This document shows positions 20,037 to 42,262 of a stretch of DNA of 64,000 bases, in pieces. How positions within the stretch are numbered: position 1 is the stretch's first letter; each line of letters starts with the position of its first letter. Source of the DNA: Hydrogenobacter sp. T-2 (GTDB lineage Bacteria; Aquificota; Aquificia; Aquificales; Aquificaceae); NCBI RefSeq assembly GCF_033971325.1, contig NZ_CP117180.1, forward strand, positions 936,041 to 1,000,040, in the 5' to 3' direction. A program made the position numbers and the translations under genes. Below the pieces are notes generated by a model, which made no database searches, was not told where the DNA came from, and worked only from the letters and a program-made list of their open reading frames with translations.

Positions 20037-20065
20037 TTGACAACTAATGAAAATTCGTTTATATT
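20037..20065 (+). promoter_or_regulatory. Sigma-70 promoter of the nickel uptake operon
   Basis: TTGACA (20037-20042) and TATATT (20060-20065) with the ideal 17-bp spacer. The start of transcription near 20072 lies below the ATG at 20047, so translation must begin at GTG 20098. Confidence 0.85.
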
Positions 20066-20086
20066 ACTTTATAGAAAAAAGTAATA
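20062..20086. promoter_or_regulatory. Candidate NikR operator
   Basis: TATTAC-N13-GTAATA (within 9-bp perfect arms TATTACTTT/AAAGTAATA), overlapping the -10 box and start point. NikR sites in delta-proteobacteria are described as GTGTTAC-N13/14-GTAACAC and in Helicobacter as TATTATT-N11-AATAATA, so arms and spacing fit. Binding here would block transcription when nickel is plentiful. An identical dyad lies at 29104-29128. Confidence 0.7.
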
Positions 20087-20097
20087 CGGAGGAGTGC

Positions 20098-20778
20098 GTG
20101 CTCTTATTGTTGCTAATCTTACTGCTCTATACAGCTCAAGCTCATGAGCTGTGGATTGAAAAGGAGGGAAACCTTTTTATCCTTCTATACGGGCATATAA
20201 AACCAAATAGAGGAGAAGAGGCTACGGTCAGATACTTGCCAGAGCAGGTTCTTAGCTTTGAGTGTTTGGATGCGGAGGGTAATAGGCTCAAGGCTGAGCT
20301 TATAAAGAGCTATCCTCTCAAACTAAGGGGTAGTTGCCATATGGTTCAAGCGGTTTTCTCTTCTGGCTATTGGACAAAGACGCCTGATGGTCTTAAAAAC
20401 CTACCGAAGGACCAGGTAAAAAACCCAATAGAGAGCTGGTATTCTGTGGAAATTGCAAGAAGGATAAATGCATGGAAACCAAGAAGAGAGCCTCTAAGCA
20501 ATGATCTGGAAATTATCCCTGTAGAAAGCCCTTCAAGCCTAAGGGTTGGTGAGAAGTTTACGGTTATAGCTTATTACAAAGGAAAGCCCCTTAGAGATGC
20601 ACCTGTATACCACAATCGCAGGATAGTTGGCTCTACAGACGAAGAGGGAAGGATAAACCTAAGGGTTAGAGAAAAAGGTATTCAATTAGTGGGGGTCACT
20701 GTAAGGGAAAAGGATAGCACTGGAAAGGCAGATTATGTGCTTAAGACCTTTTATCTGATATTTGAGGTGGAGAGATGA
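20098..20778 (+). CDS. NikK-like periplasmic DUF4198 protein
   Basis: 226 residues starting at GTG 20098, after CGGAGGAGTGC. The signal peptide VLLLLLILLLYTAQA is followed at once by HELWIEKEGN, giving a mature N-terminus with an early His as in nickel-binding DUF4198/NikK proteins. The C-terminal part (LRVGEKFTVIAYYKGKPL, NRRIVGSTDEEGRINL) looks like an Ig-like fold. It is first in the nickel operon and overlaps the next gene by 4 bp. Family members accompany NikM/NikQ/NikO importers and are thought to capture Ni2+ in the periplasm. Confidence 0.75.
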   Translation: MLLLLLILLLYTAQAHELWIEKEGNLFILLYGHIKPNRGEEATVRYLPEQVLSFECLDAEGNRLKAELIKSYPLKLRGSCHMVQAVFSSGYWTKTPDGLKNLPKDQVKNPIESWYSVEIARRINAWKPRREPLSNDLEIIPVESPSSLRVGEKFTVIAYYKGKPLRDAPVYHNRRIVGSTDEEGRINLRVREKGIQLVGVTVREKDSTGKADYVLKTFYLIFEVER

Positions 20779-21188
20779 TCGTGATTTTGATTTTTCTTTT
20801 AGTTTCCCTTTCCTTTTCTCATGAGCTTTTAGAGGAGGTCCGTCAGGAAGGCAACTGCACCCTTGTGCATTTTTACTTCCAAGATGGAAGTGCCTTTTCC
20901 TACGAGGAATACGAGGTTTACAGAGAGGGCGAGAAAGCTCCCTTTCAAAAGGGCAGAAGTGATGCCCTTGGGAGAGTAGTTTTCTGCCCTGACAGAGACG
21001 GTCTTTGGTTTTTGAGGATACGCTCTCAGGATGGGCATGGTGCAGAGCTCAGGCTCAATCTAAAGGCTGGCAAGGTGGAAAAAAAACGCAGCAAGTTTGA
21101 AAGCTATCAAAGGGTTCTTTCTGGTCTTGGCTATCTTCTCGGCATCTTTGGTCTTATTAGCCTGTTTTCAAGGAGGTGGAAAAGATGA
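20775..21188 (+). CDS. NikL-like small periplasmic nickel-transport component
   Basis: 137 residues: a signal-like N-terminus (VILIFLLVSLSFSHELLEE), an early His after it, a soluble beta-rich middle (EVYREGEKAPFQKGRSDALG) and one C-terminal membrane helix (LGYLLGIFGLISLF) with a basic tail. This is the layout of NikL, which replaces NikN in some nickel ECF-type importers. ATGA overlap with the upstream gene. No NikN-like small membrane protein is found in the operon, supporting the NikL role. Confidence 0.65.
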   Translation: MIVILIFLLVSLSFSHELLEEVRQEGNCTLVHFYFQDGSAFSYEEYEVYREGEKAPFQKGRSDALGRVVFCPDRDGLWFLRIRSQDGHGAELRLNLKAGKVEKKRSKFESYQRVLSGLGYLLGIFGLISLFSRRWKR

Positions 21189-22180
21189 GAAGGTTAACCT
21201 TTGCATTACTAACCCTTTCGGGCTTAACCTTTGCCCATCATGGTGTCGCCTCTCTTGGTGCGGTCGGTCTTGAAGGACCCGGTGCACCCCTTGAAAGCTC
21301 AAGCTCCGCCACACTACCAGAAGGTTCATGGCTCTTTTATACCAAGTTAGACAGCGTAAAGTGGAAAAAATACAGCTTTTCGGAATTTCCAGACCAAAAG
21401 GACAGGTCAGACTTTTGGATGTTCGGAGTTGGATACGGTTTTAAGCCTTGGCTTTCTCTGTATCTTTTTGTTCCCTACAATGTAAAGAAGGAGCTAAGGG
21501 ATGGTGGTGAAAAGAGCTTTACCAGTAGAGGTTTTGCGGATGTCTCTTTGATGGCAGTTCTTGGCTTTAAATATGACAGAGGTCTTAGGCTACTTCCAAA
21601 GAAGGAAAGCCTTGAGGATATGATGGACTGGCACTTTACCCTTTATGGTGGCATTAGCCTACCCACTGGCAACGCTAACAAGAAAGGCTATCAAGGAGAG
21701 TTTGCACCAGATATGGCTTTGGGCTTTGGAAAGCCCACTTTAACAGCAGGCTTCACAGCCACAAAGCAGTTTGTAAATCTCCCTGAGCTTACCTTTACCC
21801 TTGACACAAGCTATCTGAAGTTTTTTGAGCATAAATACAACACAGGGGACAAGTATAAGTTTGGTGATGAGGTAAGGGTAAACACCGCCCTGAGTTATAG
21901 AGTTTTCAAGGATGTGCAAAGGTCTCTGAGGTTTGACCTTCTTACGGAGCTTAATTACCTTCACCTTCAGAAAGATAAGGAAAATGGTCTTAAGTTGAAT
22001 GACTCTGGTGGCGATATACTCTACGGAGTTCTTGGTGGAAGGATGTATTACAAAAGGGCTTCCCTTGGAGCTGGTGTGAAGTTCCCCCTATGGAAAGACC
22101 TAAACCAGCAGAGCCAACAGCAGGGTGCGGAAGGCAAGGAAAAATATAGGCTCATCATGACCTTTTCTCTCATGTTTTAG
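21185..22180 (+). CDS. Outer-membrane beta-barrel protein of the nickel operon
   Basis: 331 residues. The signal peptide LTFALLTLSGLTFAHHG leaves a mature end starting with two His. The body is beta-barrel-like with a C-terminal aromatic (MTFSLMF). I do not recognise a specific family beyond transporter-like or MetA-pathway-type barrels. ATG 21185 follows AGGAGGTG; a GTG at 21176 lies inside that site. Its place between nikL and nikM suggests an outer-membrane nickel channel. If so, this would be a TonB-independent route; that is inference. Confidence 0.65.
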   Translation: MRRLTFALLTLSGLTFAHHGVASLGAVGLEGPGAPLESSSSATLPEGSWLFYTKLDSVKWKKYSFSEFPDQKDRSDFWMFGVGYGFKPWLSLYLFVPYNVKKELRDGGEKSFTSRGFADVSLMAVLGFKYDRGLRLLPKKESLEDMMDWHFTLYGGISLPTGNANKKGYQGEFAPDMALGFGKPTLTAGFTATKQFVNLPELTFTLDTSYLKFFEHKYNTGDKYKFGDEVRVNTALSYRVFKDVQRSLRFDLLTELNYLHLQKDKENGLKLNDSGGDILYGVLGGRMYYKRASLGAGVKFPLWKDLNQQSQQQGAEGKEKYRLIMTFSLMF

Positions 22181-22182
22181 CC

Positions 22183-22818
22183 ATGCATGTCCCGGATGGA
22201 TTTATTGCACCTCAGGTTTTTTTGCCAGCGTATGGACTGGTTATAGGTCTTGCCCTCTATGGTTTTAAAAGGTTTAAGGAAAACCTAAATGAGAGAAGCA
22301 TTCCCTACTTGGCAACCCTTTCCGCCTATGCCTTTGTCCTCAGCTCCCTTTCTTTGCCACTTCCCGGTGGCACATCCGTGCATGGGATGGGTTTTGCACC
22401 CCTTTCTATACTTTTTGGTCCATGGACAGCCTATCTGTGTATGTGTCTCGTTTTCTTACTTCAGGCGGTATTATTAGGTCATGGAGGGATAACCACATAC
22501 TCGGTGAACGCCCTCGCCATTGGCTTTGTAGGGAGCTTTTGTGCCTATGGGGTTTATAGCCTTTTAACAAAAAGAAAGTATGCTACTTTCCTCTCTGGCT
22601 TTATATCCACCCTTGCGTCCGCCCTTTTTATGTCTGTTGTTCTTGGTATACATCCCTATCTTTTCACAGATGTGGACGGAAAAGCTCTTTATTTCCCCTA
22701 TCCTCTCAGCATTACAATTCCTCTTCTTTTAACTTCCCATATACCAGTTGCCCTTGTGGAGGGACTTTTAACTCAAGCGATAGTGAGCTTTGTAAGGAGG
22801 AGGGGTTTTGAAGGATAG
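22183..22818 (+). CDS. nikM: Nickel ECF-type transporter substrate-binding membrane protein
   Basis: 211 residues, CbiM/NikM family. It begins MHVPDGF: the free N-terminus and His2 that coordinate the metal in this family are exposed without a signal peptide. SVHGMGFAPLSILFGPW carries the second metal-site His. There are six to seven membrane segments. It starts 2 bp after the barrel gene and overlaps nikQ by 11 bp. The neighbouring nikR, urease and hydrogenases argue for nickel over cobalt. Confidence 0.9.
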   Translation: MHVPDGFIAPQVFLPAYGLVIGLALYGFKRFKENLNERSIPYLATLSAYAFVLSSLSLPLPGGTSVHGMGFAPLSILFGPWTAYLCMCLVFLLQAVLLGHGGITTYSVNALAIGFVGSFCAYGVYSLLTKRKYATFLSGFISTLASALFMSVVLGIHPYLFTDVDGKALYFPYPLSITIPLLLTSHIPVALVEGLLTQAIVSFVRRRGFEG

Positions 22819-23353
22819 ATTTCTCCTGTTGCTTTACATGCTGGCACTTGTTCTTTTGGCTTCTCTCTCTTCTATAAAATACTTGCTCTTATTCCTTTTT
22901 CTTCTTCTTCTTGCTAACGCAATATCCCTGAGGGGTAATTTCAGAAGGGCTATTAGACCTCCTCTCTTTGCCCTTTTTACTGCCTTTTTTATATCAACGC
23001 CCTATGCCCTCTGGACTGGACACTATTCCTATGCTCTTCTCCTTACCTTACGCGTGCTTAACCTTACGCTTCTTACTCTTCTTGTTTTGAGAAATATAAA
23101 CCTCTACTTGGCATTTGGCTTTTCAAAAACCCTTTCACAGCTTCTTGTCCTCACGTCAAGCCATATACTCCTTTACAGAAGGGTTTTTTCTGAGTTTAAG
23201 GATTCCTTAAGGAGCAGAAGCCCAGAGGGTCCACAAAGAAGGGATATGATAAACTTCTCTGGAGGTATAGGGCTTTACTTCTTTGATAGGGCTCTTAGGG
23301 ATTCTGAAGAAGTGGCAAAAGCTATGAAATCAAGGGGGTTTTATATTGATTGA
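22808..23353 (+). CDS. nikQ: Nickel ECF-type transporter permease component
   Basis: 181 residues, CbiQ/EcfT-like. Four to five membrane segments are followed by the cytoplasmic coupling helix SRSPEGPQRRDM and a C-terminal EEVAKAMKSRGF, whose Ala-Arg-Gly-type motif docks the ATPase. Starts at TTG 22808 within nikM and overlaps nikO by 8 bp. Shorter than typical CbiQ (about 225-250), so the N-terminal region is reduced. Confidence 0.82.
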   Translation: MKDRFLLLLYMLALVLLASLSSIKYLLLFLFLLLLANAISLRGNFRRAIRPPLFALFTAFFISTPYALWTGHYSYALLLTLRVLNLTLLTLLVLRNINLYLAFGFSKTLSQLLVLTSSHILLYRRVFSEFKDSLRSRSPEGPQRRDMINFSGGIGLYFFDRALRDSEEVAKAMKSRGFYID

Positions 23354-24110
23354 ACTTATAGATGTTTACTACTACTATGAAAACTACACAGCTCTAAGAG
23401 GCATAAGCCTGAAGATAGAAGAAGGAGAAAGGGTAGTTCTGCTTGGTATAAACGGCTCTGGCAAGAGCACACTTCTTAAAATCCTAAACGCCTTAATCTT
23501 TCCACAAAAGGGTTCATACCTTTATCGTGGCAAAAGGGTTGAAGAAAAGAGGCTAAAAGAAAGGGATTTTAGAAGAACCTTCAGAAGGGAAGTGGTTCTT
23601 CTCTTTCAAAACCCAGAGGTTATGATATTTAATCCTACAGTTTATGATGAGCTTGCCTTTTCTCTGAGACAGCTGGGGTTGGAGGAAAAGGTTATAAGGG
23701 ACAAGGTTCTATACTGGGCGGAGAAGTTTGGACTTACTCCCTACTTGCAAAGACCACCCTTTGAGCTGAGCACTGGTATAAAACAAAAGCTGTGCCTTGC
23801 TTGCCTTCTTGTGCTTGAGCCAAAGGTTCTTCTTCTTGATGAGCCTACCGCACATCTTGACCCAAAAACAACAGGATGGTTTGTAGACCTTCTTTGGGAG
23901 CTCTCTTGCACCACGGTGGTTTCCACGCATAACCTAAGCCTTGCAAATGAATTGGGCAGTAGATTGTTAGTCTTGGGAGAGGAGCATACTTTAGTCTACG
24001 ATGGTAAGATAGAAGAGTTTTTCAAAGATAAGGAGAACCTCATAAGGGCAGGTCTTTTGCATAGGCATAAGCACAGGAGCACTGGAGACTGGCATCTTCA
24101 CAGCCTTTGA
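23346..24110 (+). CDS. nikO: Nickel ECF-type transporter ATPase
   Basis: 254 residues, CbiO/NikO family. LLGINGSGKSTLLKIL (Walker A), LLFQNPEVMIFNPTVYDELA (Q-loop with the ECF-type NP motif), FELSTGIKQKLCLACLL (signature, with ST in place of SG), VLLLDEPTAHLD (Walker B) and VSTHN (H-loop). It starts at TTG 23346 inside nikQ. It ends with the His-rich stretch HRHKHRSTGDWHLHS, which could bind nickel. Confidence 0.9.
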   Translation: MIELIDVYYYYENYTALRGISLKIEEGERVVLLGINGSGKSTLLKILNALIFPQKGSYLYRGKRVEEKRLKERDFRRTFRREVVLLFQNPEVMIFNPTVYDELAFSLRQLGLEEKVIRDKVLYWAEKFGLTPYLQRPPFELSTGIKQKLCLACLLVLEPKVLLLDEPTAHLDPKTTGWFVDLLWELSCTTVVSTHNLSLANELGSRLLVLGEEHTLVYDGKIEEFFKDKENLIRAGLLHRHKHRSTGDWHLHSL

Positions 24111-24124
24111 TAAAATTTTAGAAA

Positions 24125-24535
24125 ATGGAAAAGAGTGTAAGATTTTGTGTATCTTTGCATGAGGGCCTTCTTGAGGAGCTTGACAAAAGAGTGATAAGGA
24201 GGGGTTATGCGTCAAGGTCCGAGCTCGTTAGAGACCTCATAAGAGACCTACTATCCCAAGAAAAATGGGAAGAAAACCAAGAAGTTATCGGTGTCCTGAG
24301 CATAATATACGACCATCACGACAAAGAGTTAGTTTACAGGCTTCTTGACCTTCAACACAAGCATCATGTTAATGTTCTCTGCTCCACTCATCTTCACCTT
24401 GACCATCATAACTGCCTTGAGGTAATAGTCTTAAGGGGTATGGCTGAGGAACTTGAGAGCCTTGCAAACCAAATAGGTGGTCTAAGAGGCGTAAAACTCT
24501 CTAAGCTAAGCAGAGTTTACCTTCCTGAGTTGTAA
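24125..24535 (+). CDS. nikR: Nickel-responsive regulator
   Basis: 136 residues. The N-terminal ribbon-helix-helix DNA-binding domain (SVRFCVSLHEGLLEELDKRV, YASRSELVRDLIRD) is followed by an ACT-like nickel-binding domain with YDHHDKELVYRLLDLQHKHH and STHLHLDHHNCLEVIVLRG, containing the conserved His/Cys square-planar site. With nickel it binds dyads and represses uptake genes. Candidate targets here are the dyads at 20062-20086 and 29104-29128. It is 14 bp behind nikO; its 3' end overlaps arsC (convergent) by 30 bp. Confidence 0.95.
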   Translation: MEKSVRFCVSLHEGLLEELDKRVIRRGYASRSELVRDLIRDLLSQEKWEENQEVIGVLSIIYDHHDKELVYRLLDLQHKHHVNVLCSTHLHLDHHNCLEVIVLRGMAEELESLANQIGGLRGVKLSKLSRVYLPEL

Positions 24536-24986: not shown

Positions 24987-25409
24987 ATGATAGGCTATAA
25001 AGAGGCTTATTACTTAGCCTTGAAGAAGATAGGAGAGAATCTCCCTAAGTGTTTTGGTGAAAATCTCCTTTCCCTTGTGGTTTTTGGTTCTGTAGCAAAA
25101 GAGACCTTTTCTCCAGAGTCAGACATTGACCTACTTGTTATCCTTGGAGACTTTAAGAGTAAAAGGGAAGAGTATGTGCGTTTGTTTGAATGCCTTGAGG
25201 AAGTAAAAAGGGTAAACCCCATAATCCTTAAGAAGGAACAACTAAGAGAATCCTTATGGTTTCTATGGGATTGTAAGTTTATCATTTTGTATGACAAAGA
25301 GGGTTTCTTTGACAGTTTTGTGGAGAGGCTCAAGGAGTTTCTTCGTAAAAATGTGGTGAAGGTGGAAGGCAGGATGCCCTATTACGAGGTTATAAATGGT
25401 AAACCCTGA
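24987..25409 (+). CDS. MNT-type nucleotidyltransferase domain protein
   Basis: 140 residues, polymerase-beta-like nucleotidyltransferase. VVFGSVAKETFSPESDIDLLVIL contains the GSxA-x(n)-SDxDL motif with the two metal-binding Asp. Such proteins often act as antitoxins, AMPylating a HEPN toxin, but no HEPN gene is next to it. It lies between 19-bp direct repeats and appears inserted between arsC and the TetR gene. No ribosome site is visible. Function unknown beyond the domain. Confidence 0.75.
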   Translation: MIGYKEAYYLALKKIGENLPKCFGENLLSLVVFGSVAKETFSPESDIDLLVILGDFKSKREEYVRLFECLEEVKRVNPIILKKEQLRESLWFLWDCKFIILYDKEGFFDSFVERLKEFLRKNVVKVEGRMPYYEVINGKP

Positions 25410-25416
25410 ACTTGAA

Positions 25417-25435
25417 GATGTTAAGATTTTATTAA
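25417..25435 (+). repeat. 19-bp direct repeat, copy 2
   Basis: GATGTTAAGATTTTATTAA, identical to 24967-24985, immediately above ATG 25438 of the TetR gene. Confidence 0.8.
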
Positions 25436-25437
25436 AG

Positions 25438-26031
25438 ATGAAAAGGCAAGGCATTAAGGAAAGAAAAAGGCTTGAGATAATCAGGACCGCTTGCAGGTTG
25501 TTTTCCGAAAAGGGATACTATAACACCACCATGCCGGATATAGCACAAGCAGTGGGCATGAGCGTTGGAAACCTCTACAACTACTTTGAATCTAAGGAGG
25601 AGCTGGCAAAGGAAATAATGATGACCGTCTCTGATTGGGTGGGTGAGAAGCTCAGGAAAATAAACGAGATGGAAGTTAACATGCATGAGAAGGTAAGGAT
25701 GTTTGTTAGGAGTTTTTTTGAGATAGCCATTGAAGAGCCTGAGCTTATAAGCTACTTCCTTAGAGTTTATCTGGTAAACAGAGAAGTTTTCAGCGATGGA
25801 TGTGAGGGTTTTGCCTGCGTTGCAAGTGTGATAACGGAGGTTATGGTTTTCCTAAGCGATGGGATAGAAAAGGGAGAGTTTAGAAATCAGAGCTTTTATC
25901 CAGCATTTACTATCATAATGGGAACTCTTGGTGGTATGGTCTTTCTCCATAAAGAAGGGCTTCTTGATAAGCATCTAATGGATTACATAGAAGAGGTCTC
26001 GGAGAACATATGGAGGGCGTTAAGGGCTTAA
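25438..26031 (+). CDS. TetR-family transcriptional regulator
   Basis: 197 residues from ATG 25438. The N-terminal helix-turn-helix is clear: IIRTACRLFSEKGYYNTTMP, DIAQAVGMSVGNLYNYFESK, EELAKEI. The C-terminal ligand domain is unrecognised. An ATG at 25396 after GAGGT is the alternative start and would add 14 residues; I prefer 25438 because the 19-bp repeat shows the same upstream sequence before both genes. It faces hypX with a 12-bp overlap. It is the only local regulator that could bind the dyad TGAATGANNATTCAG found at three hydrogenase promoters, so it probably represses hydrogenase genes. Confidence 0.85.
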   Translation: MKRQGIKERKRLEIIRTACRLFSEKGYYNTTMPDIAQAVGMSVGNLYNYFESKEELAKEIMMTVSDWVGEKLRKINEMEVNMHEKVRMFVRSFFEIAIEEPELISYFLRVYLVNREVFSDGCEGFACVASVITEVMVFLSDGIEKGEFRNQSFYPAFTIIMGTLGGMVFLHKEGLLDKHLMDYIEEVSENIWRALRA

Positions 26032-27705
26032 CCTTCTATGGAGGGCCAGGTAAGGTGGTGTCCTGAAGGGTAAAAACCTTCTAACAAAATAGTAGCGAGC
26101 TATGTGATAGCTTGTATCAAAGCCGTAGAAGTTAAGCCTCATATTTTCAAGCTCCTCTTCTCTGTAAGACCTTAAGGGTTTTTTGCTCCAGTCTTTGAGC
26201 CTTTCTTCTTTTTTTCTCATTATAAAGTTCTCAAACTCCGCCGAGTCTACAAAGTCTTGTAGGAAGGCTTTGATTTTTTCCAGAAAGTCCTCAGGAGAAT
26301 TACCTAAAACTCCGTCTATCAATCCAAGCCTGAAAGCCTTTTCAGAGCTTATGGGCATTCGGTTTTCCATTATTTCCTTTCCCTTTTCCCAGCCTACTCT
26401 TTTGGGAAGTGTGTAGGTCCAGAACTCAGAGCCATAAAGGTTTCCTATATTCTTGTAGTGTGGGTTAAGCACCACTCCTTTTCTCGCAAAAACAAGGTCG
26501 CAACAAAGGGCAAAGAAAACACCGCCAGCTCCTGCATTGCCTCTTATGCCTGCCACAGTTAACTTATCAAGTGTTGTAAGTATCTCTTCGCATAGGTCAT
26601 CTATGGCGTTTATGTTTCTCCAAGACTCATCCGCTGGGCTTTCGGACGCTTCTATGGTATTTAGGTTCATGCCGTTGGAAAAGAAATCCTCACCACCAAG
26701 AAGGACTATAGCTTTTACGGGTCTTTTCTTTGCGTATTTTATAACATCAAGCAGTCTTTCACACTGCTGGGTAGACATGGCTCCATTGTAGAACTCAAAG
26801 TCTATGTATGCTATGTTTTTGTGTTCTGTGTAAACTATCTCTCTGTAAGTGGGAAAGTCTACCGTCTCCCAAGGTTTTAGAGGCTCTTCTCTTAAACCTT
26901 CAATTAAGACCTCGGGTAAAACTCTTACTGCTGGTAGCTTTATTCCATATCTTCCCTTTTCCCTGAGATGACCTATCCAAACAGCACCGTCCGTAGTCGC
27001 TATACACACCGCCTCGTCCCTTTTAGCTATCAATTCACCCGGTTTACCCCTGAGATATCCTTCAGGAAAGGCATTAAAGAGATAGTATTCTTTTCCCCCT
27101 ATAGAGGCGAGTGCACCGGGCTGACCATCGCCTGAGTAGACCTTTTTAAGCACATCCTCTGTGCGGTCTGTCTGCCAGTTAATAGCCCTTAGCCTCTTAT
27201 CCACAGTGGGTCTAAAGCGTCCATTTTCTTGCGGTTTTACTTCCACCCTTCCCCTTTCAAGGCTTTCCATTACTTCCCACAAGCACTCAACAGCACCTTC
27301 AGTTACCTCTCTCCTGTATATGCTTGACTTTTTTGCCCTTCGCATGGGAAAGGTTCTGTATGCCCATACATCTCCCGCATCGTATTCCTCCACAGCGGAA
27401 AGCATACATACACCCCATTCCTTTTCCTCTTCAAGGATAGCCCAGTCAAGGGCATTGGGACCCCTGTCGCCTGGAGGTCCGGGATGGACAACCAAGGTTA
27501 TGTAATTTTCCCAGATAGCTCTTGGTATCTTTCTCTTTAAGAAGGGTGCTATAATTAGGTCAGGCTTGAAGATGCTTACCGCTTCCACCATAAGGTTTGG
27601 GTGAACATCCAGCTCTATAGAGACTTCATGACCAGCTTCAGAAAGCTCGCAATAGAACCTCTGGGAAAGGGAATTGAACCTATGGCAGAACATAAGAACC
27701 CTCAT
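26020..27705 (-). CDS. hypX: Hydrogenase maturation protein HypX (CO-ligand synthesis)
   Basis: 561 residues, two-domain. The N-terminal half is formyltransferase-like (MRVLMFCHRFNSLSQRFYCE, LVVHPGPPGDRGPNALDW with the HxGPxG region). The C-terminal half is enoyl-CoA-hydratase-like (AIVLLGGEDFFSNGMNLN, GNAGAGGVFFALCCD). HypX makes the CO ligand of the [NiFe] active site from formyl-tetrahydrofolate through formyl-CoA and is typical of organisms maturing hydrogenase in air. ATG 27705 overlaps the hypD stop as ATGA. It is last of hypC-hypD-hypX. Confidence 0.93.
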   Translation of the reverse strand: MRVLMFCHRFNSLSQRFYCELSEAGHEVSIELDVHPNLMVEAVSIFKPDLIIAPFLKRKIPRAIWENYITLVVHPGPPGDRGPNALDWAILEEEKEWGVCMLSAVEEYDAGDVWAYRTFPMRRAKKSSIYRREVTEGAVECLWEVMESLERGRVEVKPQENGRFRPTVDKRLRAINWQTDRTEDVLKKVYSGDGQPGALASIGGKEYYLFNAFPEGYLRGKPGELIAKRDEAVCIATTDGAVWIGHLREKGRYGIKLPAVRVLPEVLIEGLREEPLKPWETVDFPTYREIVYTEHKNIAYIDFEFYNGAMSTQQCERLLDVIKYAKKRPVKAIVLLGGEDFFSNGMNLNTIEASESPADESWRNINAIDDLCEEILTTLDKLTVAGIRGNAGAGGVFFALCCDLVFARKGVVLNPHYKNIGNLYGSEFWTYTLPKRVGWEKGKEIMENRMPISSEKAFRLGLIDGVLGNSPEDFLEKIKAFLQDFVDSAEFENFIMRKKEERLKDWSKKPLRSYREEELENMRLNFYGFDTSYHIARYYFVRRFLPFRTPPYLALHRRLSP

Positions 27706-28823
27706 CCCTGCCACCTATATTTATAGTAGGCATTACAGGCACCTTCAGAGGAGACCATGCAGGAGCCTATCGGGTTTGATGGCGTGCAGACACTGGCAAA
27801 GAGCTTGCAATCCTTAGGCTGTGCAACACCTCTTATAATCTTACCGCATATACAAGCTGGATGCTCCTTTGGTCTTGGCAGGCTGATTGAAAACCTTCTT
27901 TCGGCGTCAAAGTCCGCAAACCTTGAATTTATCTTAAGAGAGCTGTAAGGTATAATGCCAAGACCACGCCATTCAAATTCCTTTCTTAGCTCAAAAACTT
28001 CAGCAACCAGTCTCTGAGCCTTGAGGTTTCCTTCTCTACTTACCGCCCTCGCATACTGGTTTTCTACCAGAGCCTTTTTCTCAGATATCTGTCTAACTAT
28101 CATATAGACCGCTTGCATAAGGTCAAGAGGCTCAAAGCCAGAAATCACCACAGGCTTTAAAAACTCCTCCGCGAAGTATTCGTAAGGCTTAGTCCCTATT
28201 ATGACGCTCACATGCCCAGGACCTATAAAGGCGTCTATTTCCACTTTTCCATACTCTCTAACTTCTGGTGCGTTGAGAATATGCTGTATTGCTGCAGGTG
28301 TGATAACGTGGTTTGAAACCACAGAGAGGTTTCTTATTCCCATCTCCTTAGCCTTTTTTATAAGCACTGCGGTTTGTGGAGTGGTGGTTTCAAAGCCTAT
28401 GGCAAAAAAGACCACTTCCTTTGTCGGGTTTTCTTGGGCTATCTTTATGGTGTCAAGGCACGAATAGAGCATTCTAACATCCCTTCCCTCCGCCCTCAGG
28501 TCAAGGAGGCTTTTCCTGTTTGAGCCTGGGACTCTCAGCACATCTCCATAGGTGCAAAGTATAACCTTTTCTTGGCTTGCCAACTCAAGGGCAAGGTCAA
28601 CCCTCTGCATAGGCAGGACACACACGGGACAACCCGGACCGTGAACAAAACGAACATAACCCTCAAGGAGCTGGTCTACGCCGTGCTTTAGTATGGTATG
28701 AGTGTGTCCTCCGCAAAACTCCATTATCCTTATGACCTTGCCCAGCCTTTCCACAGATGCCTTTATGGCTCTCTCAAGCCTTTTTATAGCATCCGCCTCT
28801 CTAAAGCTAACTGTAAGCCTCAT
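27702..28823 (-). CDS. hypD: Hydrogenase maturation iron-sulfur protein HypD
   Basis: 373 residues. MEFCGGHTHTILKHG, FVHGPGCPVCVLP, and the C-terminal CICGKIIRGVAQPKDC with its [4Fe-4S] cysteines are present. With HypC it forms the scaffold on which the Fe(CN)2CO unit is built. ATG 28823 is preferred over codons further upstream: it follows GGAGGAGGAAG and overlaps hypC by 17 bp. Confidence 0.95.
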   Translation of the reverse strand: MRLTVSFREADAIKRLERAIKASVERLGKVIRIMEFCGGHTHTILKHGVDQLLEGYVRFVHGPGCPVCVLPMQRVDLALELASQEKVILCTYGDVLRVPGSNRKSLLDLRAEGRDVRMLYSCLDTIKIAQENPTKEVVFFAIGFETTTPQTAVLIKKAKEMGIRNLSVVSNHVITPAAIQHILNAPEVREYGKVEIDAFIGPGHVSVIIGTKPYEYFAEEFLKPVVISGFEPLDLMQAVYMIVRQISEKKALVENQYARAVSREGNLKAQRLVAEVFELRKEFEWRGLGIIPYSSLKINSRFADFDAERRFSISLPRPKEHPACICGKIIRGVAQPKDCKLFASVCTPSNPIGSCMVSSEGACNAYYKYRWQG

Positions 28824-29046
28824 CTTCCTCCTCCAGAATCTGCTCAAAGAGCTTGAGGCTTTCAAGGGCGTAGTCTTCCTCTAACTTCTGGATGGCAAAA
28901 CCCACATGAACAAGAACCCAATCTCCAATGGCTACCTCATCCTGAAGAAGCTCAAGGGATACAAGCCTTTTTGCTCCAAAGGTTTCTACCACCGCAGTAT
29001 TATCTTCCCTTATCTCAACGACCTTTGAAGGCACAGCAAGACACAT
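28807..29046 (-). CDS. hypC: Hydrogenase maturation chaperone HypC
   Basis: 79 residues starting MCLAVPSKVVEI; the N-terminal Cys2 that binds iron is intact. It shuttles the iron unit between HypD and the hydrogenase large-subunit precursor. ATG 29046 follows AGGAGGTAGAC. An in-frame ATG at 29067 falls inside the operator-like dyad and is rejected. First gene of the leftward hypC-hypD-hypX unit, with a TATATT -10 at 29072-29077. Confidence 0.95.
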   Translation of the reverse strand: MCLAVPSKVVEIREDNTAVVETFGAKRLVSLELLQDEVAIGDWVLVHVGFAIQKLEEDYALESLKLFEQILEEEDEAYS

Positions 29047-29056
29047 GTCTACCTCC

Positions 29057-29070
29057 TGAATGTTCATTCA
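29057..29070 (-). promoter_or_regulatory. Candidate TetR operator at the hypC promoter
   Basis: Read leftward TGAATGAACATTCA followed by G, 1 bp below the TATATT -10 (29072-29077). It matches the sites at 29200-29213 and 42246-42259 except at two central bases. Confidence 0.65.
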
Positions 29071-29103
29071 TAATATAGGCTTTTAAATCTCCCCTGCATG
29101 GAT

Positions 29104-29128
29104 TATTACCCTTTTCTAAAAAGTAATA
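29104..29128. promoter_or_regulatory. Second NikR-type dyad, between hypC and hydrogenase genes
   Basis: TATTAC-N13-GTAATA, the same arms and spacer as the nickel-operon site at 20062-20086; the inner AAAAAGTAATA half is also shared. It is centred about 50 bp above the hypC start point and about 90 bp above that of the hydrogenase small-subunit gene. This position would suit activation rather than blocking. Confidence 0.65.
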
Positions 29129-29168
29129 AAAATTAGCCTTGCTTATAAGGTTCATAAGGAAATTTTAG

Positions 29169-29197
29169 TTGACAGTGAATATGATTGAAAATATACT
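29169..29197 (+). promoter_or_regulatory. Sigma-70 promoter of the group-1 hydrogenase operon
   Basis: TTGACA (29169-29174), 17-bp spacer, TATACT (29192-29197). The operator-like dyad begins 2 bp after the -10. Confidence 0.88.
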
Positions 29198-29199
29198 TT

Positions 29200-29213
29200 T
29201 GAATGAATATTCA
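29200..29213 (+). promoter_or_regulatory. Candidate TetR operator at the hydrogenase promoter
   Basis: TGAATGAATATTCA followed by G, covering the expected transcription start. It matches the hypC and hypB sites and the general form of TetR-type operators such as TGAATGAATATTCATTCA. Confidence 0.65.
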
Positions 29214-29228
29214 GTTAGGAGGTGTAAT

Positions 29229-30296
29229 ATGGAGACCTTCTGGGAAACCTTTAAGCGACATGGCGTCAATAGGCGGGACTTTTTAAAGTTTGCCACCACC
29301 ATAACAGGGATTATGGGGCTTTCACCTTCCATGATTCCTGAGGTGGTTAGAGCCTTAGAGACAAAGCCCAGGATTCCCGTTATCTGGATACATGGTCTTG
29401 AGTGCACTTGCTGTTCAGAGTCCTTTATAAGGTCTGCAACTCCTCTTGCCTCCGATGTGGTGCTAACCATGATATCGCTTGAATACGACGATACCCTCTC
29501 AGCAGCTGCAGGGGAAGATTTAGAAAAACATAGAAAAGAGATCATCAAGAAATACTGGGGCAATTACATCTTAGCAGTGGAAGGGAACCCACCCCTTGGC
29601 GAGGATGGTATGTATTGTATTGTTAACGGCGAGCCATTTTTGAAGCACCTCAAGGAGTCCGCAGAAGGTGCAAAGGCGGTTATAGCTTGGGGTTCTTGTG
29701 CCAGTTGGGGATGCGTGCAGGCCGCAAAGCCAAACCCAACCACTGCAGTTCCTATAGATAAGGTTATAAAGGACAAGCCCATAATAAAAGTTCCTGGTTG
29801 TCCACCAATAGCGGAGGTCATGACGGGAGTTATAATGCACCTTGTTCTCTTTGATGCCCTTCCTCCCCTTGACTCTCAAGGAAGACCAAAGCAGTTTTAT
29901 GGCAACAGAATTCACGATACATGCTACAGAAGAGCCTTTTTCAACGCGGGTCAGTTTGTAGAAAGGTTTGACGACGAGGGTGCAAAGAAGGGATGGTGCC
30001 TTTATAAGGTGGGTTGTAGGGGTCCGACTACCTACAACTCCTGCGGAAACATTCGTTGGTATAACGGGCTTTCCTATCCTATACAGGCAGGTCATGGTTG
30101 TATAGGCTGTTCGGAGGACAAATTCTGGGACAATGGACCCTTCTACCAAAGGCTTACCACCATACCAGTCCCCAATGTGGAGGCAAATGCAGACAAGGTG
30201 GGTATGGCGGTTGCGGCTGCAGCGGCGGCTGGTGCGGTAGCCCATGGCGTTATATCAAAGCTGAGGTCAAAACCTAACAAAAAAGGAGGTGAATAA
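29229..30296 (+). CDS. [NiFe]-hydrogenase small subunit, O2-tolerant group 1 type
   Basis: 355 residues. The Tat signal [18 protein letters not shown] directs export. The proximal cluster region reads [11 protein letters not shown] and later [13 protein letters not shown]: both supernumerary Cys of the [4Fe-3S] cluster are present (equivalents of Cys19 and Cys120 in E. coli Hyd-1), the hallmark of O2-tolerant membrane hydrogenases. [19 protein letters not shown] and [16 protein letters not shown] carry medial/distal cluster ligands. The C-terminal Ala-rich helix ([14 protein letters not shown]) anchors it to the membrane. ATG 29229 follows AGGAGGTGTAAT; upstream in-frame codons lie in the promoter. 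Confidence 0.95.
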
Positions 30297-30298
30297 TC

Positions 30299-32203
30299 AT
30301 GGCAAGGGTTGTAGTTGACCCAGTAACAAGGATTGAGGGACATCTCAGGATTGAGCTTATAGTGGATGAAAAGTCCGGTAAGGTGGTGGATGCGGTATCC
30401 TGTGGAACCATGTGGAGGGGTATTGAGCTCATTCTCAAGGGCAGGGACCCAAGGGATGCATGGGCTTTTGCCCAAAGAATATGCGGAGTTTGCACTTCTA
30501 TACATGCCCTCGCATCGGTAAGGGCGGTAGAAGATGCTCTTGAGATAAAAATCCCTAAAAACGCTAACTATATAAGGAATATCATGTATGGCACACTGCA
30601 GGCGCATGATCACGTGGTGCATTTTTATCATCTACACGCCCTTGATTGGGTTTCTCCTGTAGAAGCCCTTAAGGCTGACCCCGTGCAGACCGCAGTGCTT
30701 CAAAACCAGCTCCTTGAAAAGTATGGTGCCATAGCAGACCTTATGCCAGACCCAATTGGAAGGAGGGCGTATCCCAAGAAGTTTCCAAAAGCGACACCCG
30801 GATACTTCAGAGCCTTCCAAGAAAAGATAAAGAAGGTTGTAGAAAGCGGTCAGCTTGGTATCTTTGCAGCACACTGGTGGGACCACCCAGACTACAAACT
30901 TCTACCACCAGAGGTTCACCTTATGGCGGTAGCCCACTACCTTAACATGCTTGATGTGCAAAGGGAGATGTTTATCCCTCAGGTAGTCTTTGGTGGCAAA
31001 AACCCACACCCTCACTACATAGTAGGCGGTATGATGTGTTCTATTTCTCTTAACGATATGAATGCACCTATAAATGTAGAAAGGCTTGCGGTGGTTGAAG
31101 ACGCCTTATACACACAGGCGGAGGCGGTGAACCTCTTTTACCTTGTAGACCTTTTGGCTATAGGGCACATATATGTGCAAAAGGGTCAGACCTACGGAGG
31201 AGGGCTTGCTAAGAAAAGGGTAATAGGCTACGGTGAGTTTCCCGACGAGCCTTACAGCGGGATAAAGAACGGAGATTATCACGAGCAGGTGCTCTATCAC
31301 TGTAACGGCGTTGTAGAAGACTTCGCAGAAGGTATAGAGAAGGCTAAGTATTATCCCCTTGTGGGAAAGGACTTTGCGGACCCAGAGGTAATCCAAGAAT
31401 ATGTAGCCCATTCGTGGTATAAGTATCCCGATGAGAGCAAGGGCCTACATCCTTGGGACGGTATAACTGAGCCCCACTACACAAGACCAAAGGAAGGAAC
31501 CAAGACCCATTGGAAGTATCTTGATGAAAAAGGAAAATACTCGTGGATAAAGTCTCCAAGGTGGAAGGGTAAGCCCTGCGAAGTGGGACCACTTGCAAGG
31601 TATATAGTGGTCTATACGGCTGTAAAGCAGGGTCATATAAAACCCAGTTGGATGGATGAGATGATAGTAAGGCAGATAGACTTCGTTTCTAAGGTGCTTG
31701 AATTACCCCCACATGTATGGCTTCCCACAACCGTCGGAAGGACTGCGACCAGAGGTCTTGAGGCACAGGTAGGGGTGGCGGGAAACCTCTACTTTATGAA
31801 AAAGCTCTACGATAACATAAAGGCAGGGGATACATCCGTTGCCAACACAGAAAGGTGGGAACCATCCACCTGGCCCAAAGAAACAAAGGGTATAGGACTT
31901 ACAGAGGCACCAAGGGGTGCACTTGGACACTGGGTGATAATAAAGGATGGAAAGATAGCCAACTATCAATGTGTGGTTCCCACCACATGGAACGGAGGAG
32001 CAAGAGACCCCATGGGAGGTCAGGGTGCTTTTGAAGAATGCATGAAGGACACACCCCTTAAGGTGGTCAATAAGCCCCTTGAAGTCCTCAGAGGCATCCA
32101 TTCCTTTGACCCATGCCTTGCCTGTTCAACGCACCTTTATGACACAGAGGGCAAAGAGATCCTTGAGATAAAGGTTCAAGGCTCACAGCCCCTATGCTAC
32201 TGA
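30299..32203 (+). CDS. [NiFe]-hydrogenase large (catalytic) subunit, group 1
   Basis: 634 residues. It holds the nickel-iron site through two CxxC motifs: RICGVCTSIHALAS near the N-terminus and DPCLACSTH near the end. The C-terminal 18 residues after that His form the peptide removed by the endopeptidase HyaD once nickel is inserted. It oxidises H2 on the periplasmic face. It starts 2 bp after the small subunit with AAAGGAGGTG as ribosome site. Maturation factors HypA-F and HypX are all in this window. Confidence 0.97.
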   Translation: MARVVVDPVTRIEGHLRIELIVDEKSGKVVDAVSCGTMWRGIELILKGRDPRDAWAFAQRICGVCTSIHALASVRAVEDALEIKIPKNANYIRNIMYGTLQAHDHVVHFYHLHALDWVSPVEALKADPVQTAVLQNQLLEKYGAIADLMPDPIGRRAYPKKFPKATPGYFRAFQEKIKKVVESGQLGIFAAHWWDHPDYKLLPPEVHLMAVAHYLNMLDVQREMFIPQVVFGGKNPHPHYIVGGMMCSISLNDMNAPINVERLAVVEDALYTQAEAVNLFYLVDLLAIGHIYVQKGQTYGGGLAKKRVIGYGEFPDEPYSGIKNGDYHEQVLYHCNGVVEDFAEGIEKAKYYPLVGKDFADPEVIQEYVAHSWYKYPDESKGLHPWDGITEPHYTRPKEGTKTHWKYLDEKGKYSWIKSPRWKGKPCEVGPLARYIVVYTAVKQGHIKPSWMDEMIVRQIDFVSKVLELPPHVWLPTTVGRTATRGLEAQVGVAGNLYFMKKLYDNIKAGDTSVANTERWEPSTWPKETKGIGLTEAPRGALGHWVIIKDGKIANYQCVVPTTWNGGARDPMGGQGAFEECMKDTPLKVVNKPLEVLRGIHSFDPCLACSTHLYDTEGKEILEIKVQGSQPLCY

Positions 32204-32214
32204 GGAGGAAAGCC

Positions 32215-32916
32215 ATGAGAGAGGAGACAGTAAAGAGAATTTACATCTTTAGCCCATCTTTGAGGATATGGCATTGGATAAATTTCTTGGCTATAATCGT
32301 CCTCTTCTTAACAGGTCTTTACATAGGAAACCCCTTTTTCATAGGCTCTACGGGTCATGAAGCAACCTACGCCTACGCCCACAACCTTACGATGGACTTT
32401 ATAAGGCTTATTCACTTCTCTGCAGGCTACGTGCTTTTGTTTTCCTTCCTGTTTCGCCTCTTTATAGCCTTTTTCCACAAGGGAGACAGGCTCTTTATCC
32501 CAAAGGTCTGGAAGGGTCAGTTCTGGAAGGGTGTGGTGGAAATGGTCCTTCACTACCTTTTTATAAAGCCTTGGCATAGAACCTATGTGAGAAATCCCCT
32601 TGCAAGGCTTGCTTACTTTTTCCTCTATATAGCCATAGCCTTCATGATAATCACAGGCTTTGCCATGTATGGACTATCTGACCCTGACGGCTTTTGGGCG
32701 AAGGTCTTTGGCTGGGTTGTCCCAATGCTCGGCGGTGAGTTTATGGTTCATATGTGGCATCACTGGGTTGCTTGGCTTATAGTCTTCTTTGTTATAGTGC
32801 ATGTATACATGGTGGTAAGGTTTGACGTCATTGAGAAGGAAGGAGAGGTTTCTTCTATGTTTAATGGGATGAAAAACTTCAAAGAAACACCCGTGGATGT
32901 GGAGGATGTAGCTTGA
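32215..32916 (+). CDS. hyaC: Hydrogenase diheme cytochrome b subunit
   Basis: 233 residues with four membrane helices. RIWHWINFLAIIVLFLTGLY, RLIHFSAGYVLLFSF and MWHHWVAWLIVFFVIVHVYM provide the His haem ligands expected in HupC/HyaC. It passes electrons from the hydrogenase to quinone. ATG 32215 follows GAGGAGGAAAGCC. Its last codon overlaps the endopeptidase start. Confidence 0.93.
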   Translation: MREETVKRIYIFSPSLRIWHWINFLAIIVLFLTGLYIGNPFFIGSTGHEATYAYAHNLTMDFIRLIHFSAGYVLLFSFLFRLFIAFFHKGDRLFIPKVWKGQFWKGVVEMVLHYLFIKPWHRTYVRNPLARLAYFFLYIAIAFMIITGFAMYGLSDPDGFWAKVFGWVVPMLGGEFMVHMWHHWVAWLIVFFVIVHVYMVVRFDVIEKEGEVSSMFNGMKNFKETPVDVEDVA

Positions 32917-33404
32917 GGGTGCTCCTTCTGGGTGTGGGAAACGTGCTCCTCTCAGACGAAGGACTCGGTGTAAGGCTGGTAGAGGAGCTAAGGAGACGCT
33001 ACAGGTTCTCCCCAGATGTGGAGCTTATGGATGGTGGAACGCTTGGTATAGACCTCCTTTACTTTATAGAGGGCTTTGATAGGCTTTTGCTGGTGGATGC
33101 TGTGCTGGGAGGCTCTCCTCCTGGCACTCTTTATAGGTTTGAGGGTGAAGAGGTAAAGGCTTACTTTAGAAAAAAGGTCTCCGCTCACGAGCTTGGCATT
33201 CAAGAAGTGCTTGCCATAGCCCAGATGTTAGGAAAAGCTCCGAAAGAGATAGTTCTCCTCGGTATGGAACCAGAGAGCTTAGAGATCTCCCTTGAACTTT
33301 CTGAGAGTGTAAGGTCAAGGTTTGAGGAGCTTATATCTGCAGTCCTGCGAGAGTTGGAAAGATGGGGTGTGAGCTATGAAAGAGTTGAGCCTGCAGGAGT
33401 TTAA
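32913..33404 (+). CDS. hyaD: Hydrogenase maturation endopeptidase
   Basis: 163 residues, HyaD/HupD family. LLLGVGNVLLSDEGLGVRLVEEL, LMDGGTLGIDLLYFIEG and LLVDAVLGGSPPG carry the nickel-sensing Glu and Asp, and KVSAHELGIQEVL the conserved His. It clips the C-terminal tail of the group-1 large subunit. Starts at TTG 32913 overlapping the hyaC stop. The cytosolic hydrogenase at 39368 has no tail and needs no such protease. Confidence 0.92.
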   Translation: MRVLLLGVGNVLLSDEGLGVRLVEELRRRYRFSPDVELMDGGTLGIDLLYFIEGFDRLLLVDAVLGGSPPGTLYRFEGEEVKAYFRKKVSAHELGIQEVLAIAQMLGKAPKEIVLLGMEPESLEISLELSESVRSRFEELISAVLRELERWGVSYERVEPAGV

Positions 33405-33687
33405 GGAGCTTATAGCCTCTGGAAAGACCTTTGTCCTTTACGTAAGGTCTGAATCCAAGAAGAACACTATAAAAGAGGTTTTTGACACGGATGTGGTTAT
33501 TCCAGAGCTTGAAAGAGTCTATGCTGATAGCCTTGAGTTTTACTCCATAAACGCAGATGAAAACATGGAAATCCTCAAAAGCTACAGACTGCCTTCCTTG
33601 GTGCTTTTTTCTGAAGGTAAAGAAGTGAGGGTTCTTGAAGGCATAAGGGCATGGAGTGAATATATGGAGGCTCTATCATGCTTATGA
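33376..33687 (+). CDS. HyaE/HupG-like thioredoxin-fold hydrogenase chaperone
   Basis: 103 residues. Thioredoxin-like fold without redox Cys: FVLYVRSESKKNTIKEV stands where CxxC would be, then FYSINADENMEILKSYRLPS and LVLFSEGKEVRVLEGIRAW. HyaE/HupG proteins bind the Tat signal of the small subunit until assembly is complete. Overlaps hyaD by 29 bp and the next gene by 10 bp. Confidence 0.75.
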   Translation: MKELSLQEFKELIASGKTFVLYVRSESKKNTIKEVFDTDVVIPELERVYADSLEFYSINADENMEILKSYRLPSLVLFSEGKEVRVLEGIRAWSEYMEALSCL

Positions 33688-34079
33688 ACGCACCCGCTAT
33701 ACTAATGGAGCTGGTTCAGGCTCTTAAAGACCTTTATGAAAAGGGTGAGGAGCACATCATATACATAAACAAACTGCCCCTCTCTGAGGAAGACAGGGAG
33801 GTGCTTCTTGACGTGCTTGGAGAGGGTCAAGTTAGGATAAGCCTATCTTCAAAGGTTCAGCCTGTGGAGTGGAGAGAGACGAGCATAAGCGGTGTGTGGA
33901 TAGGCGTTTTCTATGACAGAGACAACAAGCCCATACTGGAAACCATAGAGGTATGCCATTTTCCACAGCTTGCGAAAGCTCAGAGGGAAGATATAGAGGA
34001 GTCAATTAGGGTTTTAAAAGAAAGGCTTGAAGCTATAGTCCCTCCGCTAAACCCCCAAAGACCGCCTGACCAAGACTAA
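33678..34079 (+). CDS. HupH/HyaF-like hydrogenase assembly protein
   Basis: 133 residues. LPLSEEDREVLLDVLGEGQV and SKVQPVEWRETSISGVWIGV are characteristic of HupH/HyaF, a small-subunit maturation factor linked to O2-tolerant enzymes; IEVCHFPQLAKAQ follows. Shorter than typical HyaF (about 280 residues), keeping only the core. ATG 33678 follows GGAGG at 33666-33670. The 3' end overlaps hypF (convergent) by 47 bp. Confidence 0.75.
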   Translation: MLMNAPAILMELVQALKDLYEKGEEHIIYINKLPLSEEDREVLLDVLGEGQVRISLSSKVQPVEWRETSISGVWIGVFYDRDNKPILETIEVCHFPQLAKAQREDIEESIRVLKERLEAIVPPLNPQRPPDQD

Positions 34080-38012: not shown

Positions 38013-38357
38013 CTAAGTTTCCAATTCAAGGCTCTTAAGCAAAAGATCTCTTCCTCCTCTAATTTCTGTGTTTAGCCCACCGCACTTGGGACAGAGGGCG
38101 TTTAGCTCTTCCTTTTCAAACTCCTCCATACAGTCAAAGCAGAAAACCTTGAGCTTTTCTATCTGTATGTGAAGCTCCGCATCCCGGGCATGAGTTCCCT
38201 CTTTGAAGGTTTCAAAGGCAAGCTGGAGAAGGTGAGGCTCAACGCCAGAGAGGACACCCACAAGAAGCTCAACCTTAAGAACCCTCTTAGCCCCATGAAG
38301 GGCTACTTGCTCTTCTATAAGCTCAAAGAGGCTCTGCACTATGGAAAACTCATGCAT
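38013..38357 (-). CDS. hypA: Nickel metallochaperone HypA
   Basis: 114 residues. It starts MHEFSIVQSL with the nickel-binding MHE motif; the zinc site is CFDC...CPKC. It passes nickel with HypB to the hydrogenase large subunits and, in some bacteria, to urease; a role with the guanidine hydrolase is possible. The ATG shares one base with the hypE stop (TGATG). Confidence 0.95.
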   Translation of the reverse strand: MHEFSIVQSLFELIEEQVALHGAKRVLKVELLVGVLSGVEPHLLQLAFETFKEGTHARDAELHIQIEKLKVFCFDCMEEFEKEELNALCPKCGGLNTEIRGGRDLLLKSLELET

Positions 38358-39358
38358 CAGCAAATCCTTGGAAGTAGCTCGCCAGCAGGTGGCTCTAAAA
38401 ACCTTTTTGTTCCGTAAGGGGTTCTAAGGACAACCGCTGGTCTGCCCTCTGGCTTGACCGCATAGCCTATAAGGCTGGCTTCTTTTGCCTTTGGATGTTC
38501 CCTTAGGACCTCTAAAGCCTTCTCCGCATCTTCTCTCTTTACCGCCAATACAACTCTTCCCTCACAGGCAAGATGGTAAGGCTCTAAGCCCAAGAACTCA
38601 CATAAACCAAGCACTTCCTGTCTTATAGGAATTTTTTCTTCCTCTACGAGAAAGGAAACCATAGAAGATTGAGCCCATTCATGAAGAACTGCGGATAGCC
38701 CTCCTCTCGTTGGGTCTCTCATGGCGTGAACCTCTACACCGCTTTTTAGAAGATGCTCTACCAAGTCCCAAAGAGGTTGGCAATCGCTTCCAAAGTCCTC
38801 ACCAAATTCAAAGCCTTCCCTTTGGGCAAGCACGCAGGCACCATGGTCTCCTATAGGTCCAGAGACTATTATGACATCGCCTTCCTTTACATTTCTACAG
38901 GATAGACCCTCGTATATGACCTCACCAATTCCAGAAGTGCTTATAAAGACGCCATCCGCCTGACCCGAGGGAACAACCTTTGTATCACCTGCCAAAAAGA
39001 GCACCCCAACCTCTTCTGCGGTCTGTGCCATACTTTTTACTATCTTCTCCAGCTCTTCGTAGGGGAATCCCTCTTCTATTATGAAGGAGACGGACATATA
39101 AAGGGGCTTTGCTCCCATTACCGCAAGGTCGTTCACAGTGCCTGCAACTGCCAACTTTCCTATGTCTCCACCTCTGAAAAAGAGAGGTTTTACGGTAAAG
39201 GCGTCTGTGGTGAAGGCTATCTTTGAAGAGAGCTTAACAATAGCAGAGTCCTCAAGGGCGGAGAGGATAGGATTTCCAAGGTATTTCAAGAAAAGCTCCC
39301 TTATTAACTTCCAAGTTTCCTGACCACCACCGCCTTCAGAAAGTCTTATCCTCTTCAT
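38357..39358 (-). CDS. hypE: Hydrogenase maturation protein HypE
   Basis: 333 residues, PurM-like fold. RLSEGGGGQETWKLI, FTTDAFTVKPLFFRGGDIGK, GTVNDLAVMGAKPLY and MRDPTRGGLSAVL form the ATP site. The C-terminus PRIC bears the Cys that is carbamoylated by HypF and dehydrated to thiocyanate. It lies 9 bp after the cytosolic large subunit and overlaps hypA by 1 bp. Confidence 0.96.
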   Translation of the reverse strand: MKRIRLSEGGGGQETWKLIRELFLKYLGNPILSALEDSAIVKLSSKIAFTTDAFTVKPLFFRGGDIGKLAVAGTVNDLAVMGAKPLYMSVSFIIEEGFPYEELEKIVKSMAQTAEEVGVLFLAGDTKVVPSGQADGVFISTSGIGEVIYEGLSCRNVKEGDVIIVSGPIGDHGACVLAQREGFEFGEDFGSDCQPLWDLVEHLLKSGVEVHAMRDPTRGGLSAVLHEWAQSSMVSFLVEEEKIPIRQEVLGLCEFLGLEPYHLACEGRVVLAVKREDAEKALEVLREHPKAKEASLIGYAVKPEGRPAVVLRTPYGTKRFLEPPAGELLPRIC

Positions 39359-39367
39359 GGTTCTACC

Positions 39368-42235: not shown

Positions 42236-42245
42236 GATTTCCTCC

Positions 42246-42259
42246 TGAATGGTCATTCA
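42246..42259 (-). promoter_or_regulatory. Candidate TetR operator at the hypB promoter
   Basis: Read leftward TGAATGACCATTCA followed by G, 3 bp below the -10. Third member of the TGAATGANNATTCAG set. Confidence 0.65.
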
Positions 42260-42262
42260 TTA

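Follow-up and report, generated by a model that had tools for sequence, protein, structure and literature searches.

A conserved NikR-type operator between the divergent hypC and hydrogenase genes of Hydrogenobacter sp. T-2, with a probable role in matching hydrogenase production to nickel supply

We have found a conserved dyad, TATTAC-N13-GTAATA, in the divergent region between hypC and the [NiFe]-hydrogenase genes of Hydrogenobacter sp. T-2. The dyad lies in a 64,000-nt stretch of NZ_CP117180.1, hereafter the window, which is part of a complete genome of 1,692,950 bp. Sequence comparison makes us highly confident that it serves as an operator of the NikR encoded at 24125-24535. The explanation that we consider probable is that NikR acts on two copies of this operator, turning nickel import off and most likely turning hydrogenase and maturation genes up.

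Results

Genome setting and rarity of the dyad

The named close matches of the hydrogenase come from Aquificaceae, Hydrogenobacter, Thermocrinis and Aquifex, within an order of H2-oxidising thermophiles. The nickel uptake operon runs in the order DUF4198/nikK, nikL, an outer-membrane-type protein gene, nikM, nikQ, nikO and then nikR. For nikK we prefer the GTG start, because GGAGG stands before it. The dyad of interest is flanked by hypC-hypD on the minus strand and by hynS-hynL-cytochrome b on the plus strand (Table 1). The genes for both subunits, small and large, of another [NiFe]-hydrogenase also lie in the window (38013-42256, minus strand), in one apparent operon with hypB, hypE and hypA; this operon has no exact NikR dyad, and a TetR-type palindrome stands at its start.

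An earlier note on this DNA had reported a dyad at 29104-29128 with the same arms and 13-nt spacer as one at 20062, and both prove to be exact. The genome-wide search that it proposed gives no chance excess: the whole genome holds just these two exact copies, both at nickel genes, where 0.11 are expected under a first-order Markov model, and the reversed control pattern has no exact copy. Relaxed searches were dropped. With two mismatches allowed the window yields 8 matches against 3.8 expected, which is near chance level, so these matches are mostly noise. Five one-mismatch matches in the genome were not accepted as sites either; the two with inspected flanks (L003, L004) lie inside reading frames. 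The two dyads do share a AAAAAGTAATA half, as had been noticed, but its spacer part drifts in relatives, so that this half was ruled out as a signal and only the 6-bp arms were kept.

The centre of the hydrogenase copy (29116) lies ~113 bp upstream of the hynS ATG at 29229 and ~70 bp upstream of 29046, probably the start of hypC (MCLAVPSKV after AGGAGGT). Distances of about 50 bp to hypC and 90 bp to the hydrogenase start had been given before; the former holds for the longer reading frame starting at 29067 (~49 bp), and the latter for the predicted hynS transcription start (~88 bp) rather than the start codon.

Table 1. Coordinates of genes, predicted promoters and candidate regulatory sites in the window
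Feature	Position	Strand	Remarks
Predicted nikK promoter, TTGACA-17-TATATT	20037..20065	+	-10 covered by the operator at 20062-20086
TetR-type palindrome variant	20046-20059		nikK -35/-10 spacer
First operator copy, exact dyad TATTACTTTATAGAAAAAAGTAATA	20062..20086	.	Overlaps -10; ends immediately ahead of the nickel uptake operon's Shine-Dalgarno
nikK-like, DUF4198	20098..20778	+	Preferred start GTG 20098
nikL, outer-membrane-type protein, nikM (CbiM family), nikQ (by position), nikO	20775..24110	+	ECF nickel uptake
nikR	24125..24535	+	RHH domain and NikR_C; closest solved structure H. pylori NikR 2ca9
TetR-family regulator gene	25396..26031	+	Travels with the hydrogenase/nickel cluster
hypD	27702..28865	-	
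hypC	28807..29046	-	Preferred start MCLAVPSKV
TetR-type palindrome, GAATGAACATTC on the minus strand	29055..29068	-	hypC start region
Candidate hypC -10, TATATT	29072..29077	-	No good -35; operator edge 26 bp upstream
NikR-type operator TATTAC-N13-GTAATA, exact dyad TATTACCCTTTTCTAAAAAGTAATA	29104..29128	.	Between hypC and hynS
Imperfect dyad CTTATAAGGTTCATAAG	29142..29158	.	CTTATA-N5-TATAAG in relatives; ~54 bp upstream of the predicted hynS transcription start
Predicted hynS promoter, TTGACA-17-TATACT	29169..29197	+	Hexamers kept in relatives
TetR-type palindrome AATGAATATTCAGT	29202..29215	+	Overlaps predicted hynS +1; 16/17 columns of 29199-29215 invariant
hynS, [NiFe]-hydrogenase small subunit	29229..30296	+	Tat signal
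hynL, [NiFe]-hydrogenase large subunit	30299..32203	+	
b-type cytochrome subunit, HycI-type protease, HyaE-like, HupH-like	32194..34079	+	Apparently same operon as hynSL
TetR-type palindrome variant	42247-42260	-	Start of the hypB-hydrogenase-hypE-hypA operon

The NikR protein and known NikR operators

The nikR product scores above the cut-off for PF01402, PF08753 and several NCBIfam NikR models, and its closest structure in the PDB is H. pylori NikR (2ca9, E 1e-42). The nickel ligands of E. coli and H. pylori NikR are three histidines and a cysteine; here H78, H89, H91 and C97, which do not vary among 11 relatives, align with those of H. pylori in 2ca9. Read as TATTA-N15-TAATA, the dyad agrees at every position with the consensus that footprints gave for H. 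pylori NikR, TRTTA-N15-TAWTA (PMC5385501), with half-sites 20 nt, i.e. two helical turns, apart from centre to centre. The delta-proteobacterial NikR signal GTGTTAC-N13/14-GTAACAC has the same core, TTAC-N13-GTAA (PMC545781).

At the uptake operon the dyad goes with nikR across the order. Allowing up to one mismatch, it is present upstream of nikK in 14 of the 20 genomes with nikR, compared with 1 of the 9 in which no nikR was found (Fisher P 0.005, which is only a guide because the genomes are related); this one genome with the dyad and no nikR, G086, is incompletely assembled. In most cases a TTGAC -35 precedes the nikK dyad, whose end lies right in front of the Shine-Dalgarno sequence, a predicted repressor geometry. 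Other arrangements of nikR were also seen. In a genome of another genus (G016, L115 7293-7908) a dyad with one mismatch lies between nikK and a nikR-hynSL unit, with nikR directly upstream of the hydrogenase, and in three genomes of another family (G071, G061 and G009) nikR is followed within a few kb by hydrogenase genes on the same strand.

Conservation at the hydrogenase locus

Six genomes of the genus carry the hypC/hynS dyad (G000, G001, G028, G026, G034 and, with one mismatch, G044), in each case 124-125 bp ahead of the start codon of hynS. It lies upstream of the hynS -35 by 40 bp in five of them and by 39 bp in the other. Across the six, 11 of the 12 arm columns are invariant, compared with 4 of 13 in the spacer (hypergeometric P 7e-5); since G000, G001 and G028 are near-identical, these amount to ~4 independent lineages. 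The hypC side is looser, with 3 of 32 columns invariant and a distance of 22-27 bp from the dyad, although the candidate hypC -10 is 26-27 bp away in five of the six. This pattern is a phylogenetic footprint, with constraint on the half-sites.

The site is confined to one genus. Two members without nikR (G007 and G066) have no dyad upstream of hynS, nor do most relatives that carry nikR, and other genera lack it there. Among the upstream regions of 80 named hydrogenase loci, many of them from other phyla, the dyad (at most one mismatch, N13) occurs in two loci, both of this genus. G062 has nikR and a hynS that is 97% identical, and has lost the right half-site by deletion (L104 2497-2583). It is therefore a natural operator mutant, in which the control must be dispensable.

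Exact dyads in G004 and G038 lie inside reading frames and were not counted. A third exact copy in G001, at 755042 (L019 1501-1525), was also left out; it falls inside a hairpin-like repeat with the long, perfect palindrome TATTACTTTACGCAGTAAAGTAATA, no nickel gene was recognised in its neighbourhood, and it is probably unrelated to NikR.

A TetR-type palindrome and a third dyad

A second palindrome, GAATGAATATTC (also AATGAATATTCATT-like), occurs at the starts of hynS, hypC, nikK and the hypB-hydrogenase-hypE-hypA operon. The genome contains the exact form GAATGAAnATTC twice, at the hynS and hypC starts within the hypC/hynS intergenic region. In a loose scan of the window (three mismatches) the motif does not rise above chance; its support comes from the exact matches and their conserved positions. 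A version of it is found near the hynS start in most relatives, with or without nikR, and is thus more widely spread there than the NikR dyad. The TetR gene itself follows the hydrogenase: 51 genomes have both it and hynS, 17 hynS only, 5 the TetR gene only and 28 neither (P 1e-8, a value that ignores phylogeny).

We infer that the TetR protein (25396-26031) binds this palindrome, and its gene is a candidate for a master or core regulator of hydrogenase and nickel genes. Nickel control by NikR seems to have been added within the genus to an older hydrogenase circuit of the TetR type. Degraded TetR orthologues were also observed: a match with two stop codons in G004 (L245) and a partial one with one stop codon at G019:C3:246828-247103. 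No hynS was found in either genome, which suggests decay after loss of the hydrogenase.

Many relatives have a CTTATA-N5-TATAAG-type dyad at about -54 of hynS. Genome-wide there are 9 copies of the perfect CTTATA/TATAAG form (N3-N6) and 1 of the reversed control, and it is possible that this is the activator site of some further regulator.

Promoter geometry

On the predicted map the operator is centred at about -88 for hynS and -51 for hypC. Its end is 40 bp upstream of the predicted hynS -35, i.e. upstream of the core promoter without overlapping it, and simple occlusion of the hynS promoter is therefore excluded on this map. A centre near -51 from the candidate hypC start would be an activator-like place. 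Activation by Ni-NikR is thus favoured, since the predicted hynS promoter is out of reach of occlusion by the site and the adjoining hypC promoter has no good -35. That said, with its near-consensus sequence and a conserved TetR-type site of its own, the hynS promoter may need no activator.

Discussion

The earlier note had read the dyad as nickel control of hydrogenase and maturation genes through NikR, possibly by activation. This reading has gained a nikR gene in the same cluster, a consensus match, the tracking of nikR at the uptake operon, conservation at the hydrogenase and a geometry that is compatible with activation. Sequence comparison supplies the site, its conservation, its association with nikR and its place relative to predicted promoters; NikR binding, its nickel dependence, the responding promoter and the sign of control are what we infer from there.

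We propose the following model. When cytoplasmic nickel is sufficient, a Ni-NikR tetramer would occupy both dyad copies. At nikK it would sit on the -10 and start region and shut off nickel import. In the divergent hypC/hynS region it would sit upstream of both core promoters, where it would most likely raise transcription of the hydrogenase and/or the maturation genes, so that the nickel enzyme would be made when nickel is available. It is likely that the operator controls at least one of the hypC and hynS promoters. We lean only slightly towards activation over repression as the sign of that control: NikR is almost always a repressor, and direct activation of H. pylori urease is debated (PMC5385501).

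A rival reading is repression of hypCD-hoxX: Ni-NikR would block the DNA immediately upstream of the core promoter of hypC, or else a hypC promoter overlapped by the dyad, and would not act directly on hynS. NikR works mainly as a repressor (PMC5385501), its operator at nikK is in a repressor position, and the dyad is near hypC, with the candidate -10 only 26-27 bp away in five of six genomes. However, that -10 is not covered by the dyad, the distance is better conserved on the hynS side (39-40 against 22-27 bp), and switching maturation off when nickel is plentiful makes little physiological sense; we consider this reading unlikely. A little less likely still is opposite or unequal control of the divergent pair by the one operator, as at ureA/Nrr2, possibly together with the TetR-type regulator and another factor at CTTATA-N5-TATAAG. 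The divergent layout with a single operator is as reported for ureA-Nrr2 (PMC5385501) and TetR-type palindromes stand at both gene starts, but there is no known reason why hyp and hyn should respond in opposite ways.

The site could also be a genuine NikR site that has no effect on the hydrogenase, whether as a relic left when the cluster was rearranged or as a NikR sink. The operator between nikK and nikR-hynSL in G016 means that the association may be historical, and the site is lost in G062 and absent upstream of hynS in other genera. Yet the arms are kept in ~4 lineages in which the spacer has diverged, and the spacing to the hynS promoter is fixed, which makes a relic or sink improbable. 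As for a chance palindrome in AT-rich intergenic DNA, relaxed matches are indeed common and G001 has its exact copy in a hairpin-like repeat with no recognised nickel gene; set against genome-wide rarity, the consensus match, the conserved footprint and the correlation with nikR, we give chance very little credence.

The closest parallel to the activation that we prefer is the H. pylori ureA/Nrr2 region, where nickel is reported to induce the urease operon through one NikR operator while the divergent Nrr2 is repressed (PMC5385501). The regulators are close relatives, half-sites and spacing are the same, and in both cases a single operator lies in a divergent region beside a nickel-enzyme operon. 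They differ in the enzyme, which is a hydrogenase here and urease there, and in the divergent transcript, hypCD here and a small RNA there. The delta-proteobacterial NikR regulon shares the TTAC-N13-GTAA core, the operator at nikKLMQO-type uptake operons and one predicted site at a hydrogenase operon (PMC545781). That hydrogenase is a nickel-free [Fe]-enzyme predicted to be repressed, unlike the [NiFe]-hydrogenase here, and the outer positions are GTG...CAC rather than TA...TA. The E. coli NikR/nikABCDE system resembles ours in having an RHH protein with a C-terminal nickel-binding sensor that represses nickel uptake. Linkage to hydrogenase runs through other regulators in E. coli. The E. coli operator, GTATGAT-N13/14-ATCATAC (PMC545781), also differs, and has a single uptake-operon target.

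NikR control of [NiFe]-hydrogenase genes had been called little described, which is fair, although there are partial precedents. H. pylori hydA was earlier reported to be under NikR control, which ChIP-seq and RNA-seq did not confirm (PMC5385501); a site at the D. desulfuricans [Fe]-hydrogenase was predicted in 2004 (PMC545781); and a 2006 study, cited in PMC2667541, predicted that NikR controls [NiFe]-hydrogenase (Rodionov 2006). We found no literature on NikR in the Aquificales. The hypC/hynS operator thus adds a well-supported case to the NikR regulons, where direct control of [NiFe]-hydrogenase has elsewhere been predicted or disputed.

More tentatively, NikR in this Aquificaceae lineage may directly activate both the respiratory [NiFe]-hydrogenase and its maturation genes through a single operator, on top of an order-wide TetR-type regulator of hydrogenase and nickel genes with palindromes at the hynS, hypC, hypB-operon and nikK promoters. 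If this is true, one nickel signal would switch import off and nickel-enzyme production on. The locus offers a simple test of NikR as an activator beyond H. pylori urease, because the operator is clean and conserved and comes with a natural loss mutant (G062) and relatives that lack nikR. It also bears on how a deep-branching H2 oxidiser matches hydrogenase production to nickel supply, which probably sets the amount of hydrogenase that is made.
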